The notes under the pieces are model-generated. The model worked only from the letters and a program-made list of their open reading frames with translations. It did no database searches and was not told where the DNA came from. Source: Acidobacteriota bacterium (lineage in GTDB: Bacteria > Acidobacteriota > Vicinamibacteria > Vicinamibacterales > UBA2999). From it: 64,000 bases of DNA. The stretch is from positions 62,001-126,000 of the forward strand of contig CAUJDN010000066.1 of NCBI GenBank assembly GCA_963169195.1, given 5' to 3'. Position 1 is the first letter of the stretch. Each line of letters begins with the position of its first letter. Positions 14,224 to 39,733 of this stretch are shown here, one piece after another. The translations under genes and the position numbers were made by a program.

Positions 14224-16083
14224 ATGCCCATCCACGATCTCAAGGAACAGATCCAGCGGCTGCCCGAGCAGCCCGGGGTCTACCTGTACGTCAACCGGGC
14301 GGGCGAGACCATCTACGTGGGCAAGGCGCGGAGCCTGCGCGACCGCGTGCGGAGCTATCTCGGGGCCTCTGGCAGCAACCCGAAGACGGACGCCCTGCTC
14401 GATGAGATCGCGGCCGTCGACGTCATTGTCACCGACTCGGTGGTGGAGGCGCTGGCGCTCGAGAACCACCTGATCAAGCAGCGCGCGCCGCGCTACAACA
14501 TCCTGCTGCGCGACGACAAGAACTACCCCTACCTGCAGCTCACGACGGGCGAGGCGTTCCCGCGGGTGCTGGTGGCGCGCGCGGTGGAGCGCGACGGGCA
14601 CGTCTACGCCGGGCCGTTCCTGCCCGCCAGACTCGCGCGCCGCACGATGGGGCTGACGCACCGGCTGTTCGGGATCCGCTCGTGCAACGAAGTCATTACC
14701 GGGCAGCGCGGGCGGCCGTGCCTGGAGCACGACATCAAGCGGTGCCTGGCGCCCTGCGTTGCGTCCCTCTGCAGCCCGGAGCGCTACGCCCAGGCCGTGG
14801 CCGACACGCGGCTATTCCTCGAGGGCCGCAATCAGGAGCTGGCCGACACCCTGCACGCGCGGATGATGGATGCCGCCGCCCACGAGCGATTCGAGGAGGC
14901 GGCCGCGCTGCGCGATGCCTTGCGTACCGTTCGTGCCGTCCAGGAGCGACAGCAGAAGATGGCCTCGCCGGCGCTCGGGGACCGCGACGTCTTCGGCGTG
15001 AAGGTGGGGCCGAGCGGCGCCGTCGTGCAGGTCTTCCAGGTCCGCGGCGGCCGCGTGGTCGAGCGCGTCGAGTTCGCCGCGGAGGCCGGCACGGACACCG
15101 GCCGCGACGGCGACGTCGTGGAGGCGGCCGTGCAGCAGTTCTATGCGGATCAGGTGCCGCCCCCCGACGTGCACGTCCCGGTGCTCCCAGAGGAGGCCGG
15201 GGCGCTCGAGAGCTGGCTCGGCGAGCGCGCGGGCCGCAGAGTCCGGCTCGGCGTGCCGCAGCGGGGAGACAAGCGCGGCCTCCTCGACCTCGCTCGACGG
15301 AACGCGGAATTCACGTACCGCTCCCGCTTCGACGCCGGAGTCACCGCCCACTACGAGGCGCTGGAACTGCTGCAGGCCGCCCTGCGCCTGCCCGAGCTGC
15401 CCCGCCGCATCGAGTGCTTCGACATCTCCACGATCCAGGGGAGCGAGACCGTCGCCTCGATGGTCGTGTGCGAGGACGGGCGGATGAAGCGGGGGGACTA
15501 TCGGAAGTTCCGTGTCGGGAGCCGGGAGCCGGGAACCGGGAACCGGCCGGCTCCCCGTTCCCCGATCCCGGATTCCGTCAGGTTCCTCGACGACTTCGCC
15601 GCGATGGAGCAAGTCGTCCGGCGGCGCTACGCGAAGCTGCTCGAAGCCGGTGGGCCGTTTCCCGACATCATCCTCATCGATGGGGGGAAGGGGCAGCTCA
15701 CCGCCGCCTACGCTGCGCTCGAGAGCGTGGGCCTGTCGAACCTGGTCGCGATCGGCCTCGCCAAGAAGGAGGAGCTAATCTTCACCCGGGACCACGACCA
15801 GCCCCTCGCACTGGATCCCCACGGCCCCGCCCTGCGCCTGCTGCAGCGGATTCGCGACGAGGCACACCGGTTCGCCGTGACGTTCCACCGCCAGGCGCGC
15901 GCCATGCGCGACCTGCGGTCGGCGCTGGACGACATTCCCGGCGTCGGCCCGCGGCGCCGCAAGGCGCTCCTCATCCGGTTCGGGAGTGTCGCCGGCGTCC
16001 GCCGCGCCACGCGCGAGGAGCTCACCGCCGTCGTCGGCGGGAAGGCGGCCGACGCCGTCGTGGCCCATTTCGCCCGTACCTGA
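14224..16083 (+). CDS. uvrC: excinuclease ABC subunit C
   Basis: UvrC, 619 residues, makes both incisions in nucleotide excision repair. The N-terminal GIY-YIG domain shows GVYLYVN..TIYVGKARSLRDRV, and a Cys cluster follows (CLEHDIKRCLAPC). The UVR motif lies near 220, and the RNase H-like nuclease near 400-530 has Asp in ECFDISTIQG and IILIDGGKGQL. Tandem helix-hairpin-helix motifs end the protein (IPGVGPRRRKALL). Oddity: residues about 431-452 are coded by a symmetrical 60-bp heptamer repeat inserted in frame between YRKFR and DDFAAM, a surface loop of variable length in the family. No ribosome site precedes the ATG. Confidence 0.97.
   Translation: MPIHDLKEQIQRLPEQPGVYLYVNRAGETIYVGKARSLRDRVRSYLGASGSNPKTDALLDEIAAVDVIVTDSVVEALALENHLIKQRAPRYNILLRDDKNYPYLQLTTGEAFPRVLVARAVERDGHVYAGPFLPARLARRTMGLTHRLFGIRSCNEVITGQRGRPCLEHDIKRCLAPCVASLCSPERYAQAVADTRLFLEGRNQELADTLHARMMDAAAHERFEEAAALRDALRTVRAVQERQQKMASPALGDRDVFGVKVGPSGAVVQVFQVRGGRVVERVEFAAEAGTDTGRDGDVVEAAVQQFYADQVPPPDVHVPVLPEEAGALESWLGERAGRRVRLGVPQRGDKRGLLDLARRNAEFTYRSRFDAGVTAHYEALELLQAALRLPELPRRIECFDISTIQGSETVASMVVCEDGRMKRGDYRKFRVGSREPGTGNRPAPRSPIPDSVRFLDDFAAMEQVVRRRYAKLLEAGGPFPDIILIDGGKGQLTAAYAALESVGLSNLVAIGLAKKEELIFTRDHDQPLALDPHGPALRLLQRIRDEAHRFAVTFHRQARAMRDLRSALDDIPGVGPRRRKALLIRFGSVAGVRRATREELTAVVGGKAADAVVAHFART
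15517..15576 (+). repeat. symmetrical heptamer element inside uvrC
   Basis: Four heptamers on the left (GGGAGCC twice, GGGAACC twice), a central GGCC, and four complementary heptamers on the right (GGCTCCC, CGTTCCC, CGATCCC, GGATTCC) give a 28-4-28 palindrome. At 60 bp it adds exactly 20 codons. The same unit occurs at 25211-25319 and 38869-38896. Confidence 0.85.
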
Positions 16084-25210: not shown

Positions 25211-25319
25211 GGGAACCGGGAACGGGGAACCGGGAGCCGTACCGGCCTCCCGCCCCGGAACCCGGTGCCGCGCAGGGCTCCACGGCCGCCGGTGCCCCGG
25301 CTCCCGGATCCCGGTTCCC
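25211..25319. repeat. heptamer palindrome between rpsA and the HU/IHF gene
   Basis: The left arm has four heptamers in a row (GGGAACC, GGGAACG, GGGAACC, GGGAGCC; 25211-25238). The right arm has three complementary ones (GGCTCCC, GGATCCC, GGTTCCC; 25299-25319). About 60 nt lie between. Same unit as the element inside uvrC. As RNA it would fold into a long hairpin and could act as a terminator or stabiliser of rpsA mRNA. Confidence 0.85.
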
Positions 25320-38863: not shown

Positions 38864-39733
38864 ATGGCGGGAGTCGGGAGTCGGGCATCGGGAGTCGACC
38901 CTGTGGCGCCAACGGTGCCCCGCAAGGGCCTTTGCGGCGGGGCGTCATTGCCCGCCGACCTGGCCGAGCCACTCGCTGCGCTGATTGCGCGCAGGCCCGA
39001 TCTCGCCCTCGCGGTGCAGTGGTATCCGGAACTGACGTCCACGATGGACGAGCTGTCGCGTGCGGCAGAGGACGGCGCGCCGCGCGGCCTGGTCGTGGGC
39101 GCGGAGGCCCAGTCCGCGGGGCGCGGACGGCGGGGGCGCGCCTGGCGTTCGCCGCCCGGGGCCGGCTTGTACTTCTCGTATCTAACGCGGCCGGCACGAA
39201 GGTTCGATCTGCTGACGCTCGCGGCCGGGGTGGCGGTGCGGGCCGGCATCGCGCAGGCTGCCGGTCTCCACGCCGACCTGAAGTGGCCCAACGATCTCCT
39301 GGTCGGCGGCAGGAAGTTGGCCGGGCTGCTGGCGGAAGCGTCCCGGCTCGGCATGCCGGGCGGCGCGGTGGCGATTGGCGTGGGCATCAACACCCGGCCC
39401 GCCGCCTACCCTCCCGACGTCGCGGCGCGCGCGACGAGCCTGGAAGCGGAGCTCGGCCGCGCGGTGGATCGAGGCGCGGTGCTGGCGGCCGTGCTGGAGC
39501 ACCTGGGTGACACGCTCGCGTCGCTGGAGGCCGGCGGTGCCGAGCCTGTCCTGCGGGCATGGCGTGCGGCCTCACCCTCCTCCGTGGGCACAACCGTGGA
39601 GTGGTCGGAGGCCTCCGGTGCCCGCCGCGGCATCACGGCCGGCATCGACGACACTGGCGCCCTCCTGGTCCGCACGCCGACCGGTACGGAGCGCATCATC
39701 GCCGGGGAGCTGGTGTGGCATTTGGGCGCCTGA
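38864..39733 (+). CDS. birA: biotin--[acetyl-CoA-carboxylase] ligase
   Basis: About 289 residues. The biotinyl-5'-AMP motif GRGRRGRAW, the KWPNDLLVGGRKLAGLL region and GVGININ-like GVGINTRP are clear, followed by an SH3-like C-terminal domain (about 235-289). There is no N-terminal winged helix, so it is a class I enzyme without repressor function. The first 12 residues are coded by GGGAGTC heptamers, so translation may start at this ATG or further inside; a Val/Leu-rich start near residue 27 would still keep the catalytic core. Confidence 0.93.
   Translation: MAGVGSRASGVDPVAPTVPRKGLCGGASLPADLAEPLAALIARRPDLALAVQWYPELTSTMDELSRAAEDGAPRGLVVGAEAQSAGRGRRGRAWRSPPGAGLYFSYLTRPARRFDLLTLAAGVAVRAGIAQAAGLHADLKWPNDLLVGGRKLAGLLAEASRLGMPGGAVAIGVGINTRPAAYPPDVAARATSLEAELGRAVDRGAVLAAVLEHLGDTLASLEAGGAEPVLRAWRAASPSSVGTTVEWSEASGARRGITAGIDDTGALLVRTPTGTERIIAGELVWHLGA
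38869..38896 (+). repeat. four heptamers at the birA start
   Basis: GGGAGTC, GGGAGTC, GGGCATC, GGGAGTC in tandem, immediately after the proposed birA ATG; a single arm without a complementary half. It belongs with the heptamer elements in uvrC and after rpsA. Confidence 0.75.

Follow-up and report, generated by a model that had tools for sequence, protein, structure and literature searches.

How did a 60-bp array of heptamers come to lie, in frame, within the uvrC gene of an Acidobacteriota bacterium, and is this gene a singular host for such repeats? Repeats of heptamers are reported to be the most frequent of the longer simple repeats in many bacteria, with no explanation so far for how they arise and spread (PMC4692102, PMC4679880). 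The element sits in a window of 64,000 nucleotides, positions 62001-126000 of contig C66 in a 5.01-Mb draft genome (G000), and the relatives gathered through uvrC are Acidobacteriota, mostly metagenome-assembled genomes of the Vicinamibacterales. They provide one coding site with some twenty heptads in related genera, array-free sister genes, a fixed frame and a known gene order. The uvrC site thereby offers replicate, datable insertion events and a natural record of repeat birth and spread, and distinct predictions for it follow from slippage, from import of units within the genome, from transposition and from selection. We found no mention of the uvrC coding hotspot in the literature covered; G-rich heptameric repeats and repair-gene palindromes of the REP and RPE kinds were already known.

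The heptamer element and its host protein

Direct reading of the sequence places the element at 15517-15576, in frame and with the 28-4-28 architecture that the initial annotation had given it (Table 1), the one qualification being that the complementarity of the right arm is approximate only. Taken as its reverse complement this arm is GGAATCC GGGATCG GGGAACG GGGAGCC, and 48 of the 60 positions (24 of 30 pairs) are self-complementary. The order of units is unlike between the arms, which argues against simple snap-back copying of one arm as the sole origin. Chance origin of the GGGARCC repeats is excluded, since two-unit GGGARCC with at most one mismatch is matched 9 times in the window, compared to a mean of 0.32 and a maximum of 2 in 100 dinucleotide shuffles. 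When folded as RNA, the 80-nt region containing the element reaches -44.5 kcal/mol (z = -2.7), and folded as DNA the same region gives a z of -1.8. A search of Rfam with the element returned only sub-threshold matches to eukaryotic microRNA hairpins, which we attribute to chance. The left border usual in the family is GATCG[C/T]GTC ahead of the first GGGA; the uvrC copy is preceded by TGTC, and the array-free relatives L053 and L054 read CGCGTCGG and AGGGTCGG at this site.

Table 1. Coordinates of uvrC and of the heptamer arrays within the window.
Feature	Position	Strand	Description
uvrC, host gene, 619 aa	14224..16083	+	ORF; phmmer to UvrC structures 2nrt, 3c65, 1yd6
TTCCGTGTC, codons F-R-V	15508..15516	+	native uvrC, similar to the left border that is usual in the family
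Left arm	15517..15544	+	GGGAGCC GGGAGCC GGGAACC GGGAACC
Centre GGCC	15545..15548	+	sequence reading
Right arm	15549..15576	+	GGCTCCC CGTTCCC CGATCCC GGATTCC, approximately complementary heptamers
Second family member	25211..25319	+	4 units and 3 complementary units, separated by a 60-nt spacer
Third family member, one arm	38869..38896	+	GGGAGTC GGGAGTC GGGCATC GGGAGTC

Orthologues of uvrC are present in 57 of 59 relatives. The element takes up codons 432-451 and encodes the peptide GSREPGTGNRPAPRSPIPDS; in phmmer alignments to solved UvrC nuclease domains, the insert corresponds to a few-residue loop in 2nrt and 3c65. An AlphaFold model of the protein (26 sequences, mean pLDDT 82.3) falls below a pLDDT of 50 at residues 434-453, between a strand (427-431) and a helix (457-475), and the insert is predicted to form a disordered loop, running from strand to helix, in the RNase H-like nuclease domain. 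We caution that Pro/Arg/Ser-rich loops in UvrC of the Vicinamibacterales may be repeat-derived peptides.

The element is an insertion relative to same-genus relatives

Counted alike, the linker at this site has 24 residues in the present UvrC, 9 in that of the same-genus G001 (L054) and 7 in that of the same-genus G002 (L060), with no heptamer array in either relative, while 13 UvrCs parsed from the phylum outside the order have 6 or 7 linker residues and likewise no array. As the same-genus linkers are short and array-free, and linkers elsewhere in the phylum run to 6 or 7 residues, this comparison of genes shows the 60-bp element to be an insertion relative to its same-genus relatives. An insertion at a place where UvrC varies was what the initial annotation had proposed, naming as the contrary case that all relatives have, at this position, a sequence equally long but free of repeats; linkers in fact range from 5 to 99 residues. 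In G003 the linker has 26 residues and contains no heptamer array, and the sister species G004, whose UvrC is 91% identical, has one of 35 residues with a degenerate G-rich insert, the spacing of which is too long for a G3N4 quadruplex. An assembly artefact at uvrC is unlikely, given that independent assemblies have arrays at the identical site.

A dispersed heptamer family in the same genome

Searching the whole genome for heptamer arrays, as had been suggested, revealed a dispersed family: two-unit GGGARYC is matched 126 times and its reversed control never, and CGGGANNCGGGANNC is matched 155 times, compared to 4 for the reversed control pattern. These matches show the uvrC element, on the level of sequence, to be a member of a dispersed heptad-repeat family of G000. 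A census of about 370 kb around the listed matches found 59 clusters, 38 of which are intergenic although a crude gene caller assigns about 83% of this DNA to coding sequence. The commonest units are GGGAGTC (76), GGGAACC (50) and GGGAGCC (46), with GGGAATC counted twice, and two to four units per arm are the rule, with 18, 21 and 21 arms of two, three and four units, respectively. Direct reading finds no stop codon in GGGARYC-type units, whichever frame or strand is taken. The majority of arrays in the genome have a single arm and form no palindrome; a hairpin z below -2 is seen in 6 of 42 arrays, compared to 2 of 60 random stretches. To the left of the arms, GTC occupies positions -3 to -1 in 31 of 64 cases and CGTC is found in 14 of 64. 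GATC stands at -9 in 5 of 34 arrays of G000 and in 5 of 10 in the sister species, as against about 1% at single CGGGA sites; GTAG is absent from the left and right flank profiles of the 64 arms. Both of the other arrays listed in Table 1 lie close behind a gene end. The second family member is intergenic, begins 6 bp past the gene end and is near-identical in the sister species. The third is found 7 bp past a gene end, where its ATGGCGGGAGTC could start the next reading frame, and the layout at its counterpart in G004 is similar.

A recurrent hotspot in the UvrC linker of Vicinamibacterales

We parsed 83 distinct UvrCs, 76 of them from this group (13 loci were unparsable), and scored a linker as carrying an array when its lag-7 periodicity reached p ≤ 0.003 against shuffles and lag 7 was the best lag. 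A significant period-7 array is present in 30 of the 76 group UvrCs, and the 46 without one include close relatives. The arrays are composed of about 20 different and unrelated heptamers, among them GGGARCC, GAGGGTC, AAGGCTC, GGGCTTC, GGGATTC, AAAGCCC, GGGATCA, GGGGCTA, GTGGCTC, CGACGGC, ACGAGTG and CAGCCGG. On a quick UvrC tree, built with the linker removed, parsimony counts 20 array-state changes, gains and losses mixed, at least 11 of which are forced by well-supported branches, and array-free genes with linkers of 5-6 residues neighbour array-bearing genes. Because the heptamers of neighbours differ, we argue for repeated gain or replacement of arrays at the linker, as judged from the tree and the repeat units. 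The parsed genes show this exact UvrC loop to be a recurrent hotspot in the Vicinamibacterales, and the sequence-unrelated heptad arrays that occupy the same uvrC site in many other genera are what the initial annotation, confined to one stretch of DNA, had missed.

A hairpin z below -2 is found for 17 of the 30 uvrC arrays and for only 1 of 24 non-array inserts; among the other arrays of the own genome the share is the 6 of 42 given above. A strict lag test, with a tighter threshold than that used for linkers, was applied to 906 kb around uvrC from 61 genomes and returned 45 arrays of period 7 and 7 of period 8, with none at periods 4-6 or 9-12. Of the period-7 arrays, 31 are noncoding, 11 lie in the uvrC linker (fewer than the 30 above owing to the tighter threshold) and 3 are in coding DNA, of which 753 kb were covered; outside uvrC, arrays in this test are thus almost all noncoding. 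Some period-7 units are AT-rich (TCAACTT, AACTCTT, AATTCTG and AATTTAC, at L083:17550, L105:14557, L112:2408 and L141:4045), from which it follows that the period is independent of G-runs. A G-quadruplex was considered as the general basis of the arrays and rejected, as many units elsewhere lack GGG and the spacing in G004 is 16-21 nt at the same sites.

Source of the units and turnover between sister species

In the genomes tested, the uvrC heptamer is often one that its own genome carries at dispersed sites. This holds clearly for G058 and G000 and has support from G019 and G039, the signal in the others being weak. Pairs of GAGGGTC, the uvrC unit of G058, number 26 in that genome, and no other of 58 genomes has more than 3. 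The uvrC unit of G019, GGGATCA, is matched 60 times there, with more in G004, and that of G039, GGGATTC, 40 times, with equal or higher numbers in G018, G046, G056 and G007. AAGGCTC is matched only 8 times in G018, with G045 and G049 higher, and the sharing of GGGCTTN is weak (9 in G013, 7 in G014). In a test of the flanks, 10-mers from the uvrC arrays occurred 101 times in their own flanks compared to 20.8 expected from other genomes, an excess that comes mostly from three loci, several flanks having none.

Turnover between sisters was followed at uvrC and at 30 element loci, each searched for in G004, where two gave no match. Two arrays are identical or nearly so and several have common units, while many of the array loci of G000 carry in G004 an array of another kind, with the core GTCGGGAG and a spacing of 15-21 nt. 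Apparent empty sites are found in G004 at L170:3057 and L193:5237. In this alignment of loci the position of an array is conserved more than its content, a pattern that agrees neither with one sequence simply jumping nor with conservation of a quadruplex. The view that the family is, or was, mobile can be kept only in part. The arrays are dispersed in the genome, yet movement by a transposase is not supported: neither Y1/RAYT gene is flanked by arrays, a GTAG tag is absent, and most arrays are one-armed. Most of these loci are arrayed in G004 too, often with other units, a picture closer to turnover at set positions than to the jumping of one sequence.

A model for the birth and spread of the arrays

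In the model that we propose, the 60-bp element is a two-armed member of the dispersed family that was added in frame at a permissive loop on the UvrC surface. Arrays would be born and copied via replication errors that strongly prefer a 7-nt step, with slippage leading to changes in the number of units, and with template switching seeded by microhomology importing units from elsewhere in the genome and providing the inverted second arm. The arrays would be nearly neutral, and selection would purge them from almost all coding sequence. In uvrC they may persist because the loop tolerates in-frame peptides and because GGGARYC heptamers are free of stops in all frames on both strands. Taken as a whole, we consider this explanation somewhat more probable than its opposite; its component that arrays of the genome's own heptads were added recurrently to a tolerant loop is likely, and the mechanism of slippage and template switching is put forward tentatively, at a little under even chance. 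Several observations weigh against the model: slippage and template switching are steps that we infer, the arms are not the exact reverse copies that simple snap-back would give, the sharing of units is weak in some genomes (G018, G013 and G014), and neutrality alone does not account for the share of hairpins in uvrC (17/30 compared to 6/42). GATC-headed left borders also hint at a defined end of an element, which would be superfluous for pure slippage.

Slippage in place, without import, would have the array grow by 7-nt duplications from native GGG codons (CGC-GTC-GGG, or CGA-GGG for R-G), and it would agree with the strict preference for period 7, with the differing content of sisters at the same site and with arrays that start at a GGG supplied by native codons in array-free relatives; in L061 the native CGA-GGG already contains most of the unit TCGAGGG. 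We nevertheless hold it to be unlikely, as the heptamer is found dispersed in its own genome but seldom in others, with GAGGGTC of G058 the clearest case, and as the two-armed hairpins (17/30) require an inversion step. Distinctly unlikely, in our estimate, is transposition, by a Y1 (RAYT) enzyme or another transposase, of a miniature REP-like element that has a defined head (GATCGCGTC or CGTC) and a body of heptads. The dispersed copies, the GATC at -9 (5/34 and 5/10 arrays as against about 1% at single CGGGA sites), the seemingly empty sites of G004, the two PF01797 genes of the genome and the record of CGTC-tagged REPs and of REPs within repair genes (PMC3733652) would all suit such an element. 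However, no array flanks either RAYT gene (the nearest on C25 are about 2.9 and 3.7 kb away, and C19 has none in 14 kb), there is neither a GTAG tag nor a clear target duplication, most arrays are non-palindromic and sister loci carry different units at the same place.

Recurrence at one site of one repair gene, the hairpin form of 17 of 30 arrays and the earlier remark on REPs in Uvr proteins, for which a mutator effect was suggested (PMC3733652), could instead reflect selection, with the mRNA hairpin, the G-rich strand or the Pro/Arg/Ser loop tuning uvrC expression or UvrC activity. Yet 46 of 76 group UvrCs, close relatives among them, are array-free, the units, length and fold all vary freely, and the insert of G004 is degenerate, with a spacing too long for a G3N4 quadruplex, so that we regard selection for the insert as very unlikely. 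Slightly less probable still is that period 7 and the two-armed hairpin stem from a dedicated activity, be it a polymerase, a reverse transcriptase or a nucleotidyl transferase, which would use a 7-nt step or template to write heptads specific to the genome at particular sites in the DNA, with uvrC a preferred or even adaptive target in this order instead of a merely tolerant one. A dialect of DNA uptake sequences, whose bias toward repair genes is known for Neisseria, was also considered; the tandem heptads and the low copy number argue against it.

Relation to known repeats

The closest known class is that of the G-rich heptameric repeats which Rehm et al. 2015 (PMC4692102) described from Xanthomonas and Nostoc, with the units GGGNATC and GGGGA(C/T)T; a preference for four units and G-quadruplex formation in vitro are further traits of that class. 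As in that class, tandem G3N4 heptamers of two to several units occur in more than 100 dispersed copies, mostly noncoding, with the G-rich strand sense after gene ends and with some convergent inverted pairs. The present repeats differ in that the unit is GGGARYC, that many further heptamers, not all of them with G-runs, are found in other genera of the order, and that the quadruplex motif is not kept at sister loci; uvrC has no occurrence in that paper, nor is a coding hotspot in this gene mentioned there. By its sequence features, then, the element works like the Rehm class and is not filed in that sequence family. Heptamer direct repeats of TAACTGA in Beggiatoaceae and cyanobacteria (PMC4679880) are likewise dispersed arrays of 2-6 units, mostly intergenic and patchy among species, but are built from one unit across phyla, unlike the many units and the coding hotspot seen here; polymerase slippage at 7 nt is cited as an idea in the same paper.

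GTAG- and CGTC-tagged REPs have been described, including in uvrA, uvrB and other repair genes, where flexible linkers or a mutator effect were proposed, and the recB REPs of two Xanthomonas species lie at about one site (Di Nocera et al. 2013, PMC3733652). Both they and the present element are short palindromic repeats in frame in nucleotide-excision-repair genes. The present arrays, however, have no GTAG, no fixed palindrome, a heptad-array body and units that vary from genus to genus at one identical site, and unlike CGTC REPs, with a 20-40 bp palindrome per copy, only 6 of 42 arrays in G000 reach a hairpin z below -2. The word uvrC is absent from the main text of that paper, which names 'UvrABCD' proteins as a group. 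Rickettsia palindromic elements, as cited there, are fixed-sequence families; going by this description, on which the comparison is based, they too would be palindromes kept in frame in a conserved protein gene, with a tolerated extra peptide and absent from relatives, and would differ in that the inserts described here have only period 7 and the hairpin architecture in common. A literature search of partial coverage found no paper on arrays in uvrC of Acidobacteriota.

Other repeats beside the arrays

Repeats of other kinds accompany the heptamers. Octamer arrays, (CCCCAGAA)n, adjoin heptamer arrays and are C-rich on the same strand (L182:3075-3120, L202:5974-6050 and L193:2990-3030). A REP-like palindrome, GCCGAAGCCTCGGCGAAGGCGGG (and GCGCGAAGCGCGAAGGCGGGC), lies to the left of arrays in L198 and L173 and within the uvrC linkers of L096 and L107. 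A different palindrome, GCGGGGGTGGGGCCCCGCG-like, is present in the uvrC linkers of L109, L113 and L124, in L109 within a long direct duplication. Both sister genomes also contain a second array type, with CGGGAG(G/T)G cores 16-21 nt apart and variable spacers, often where the other sister has heptamers (L217:1625, L208:1624, L209:1611 and L211:741 in G004; a few loci in G000).
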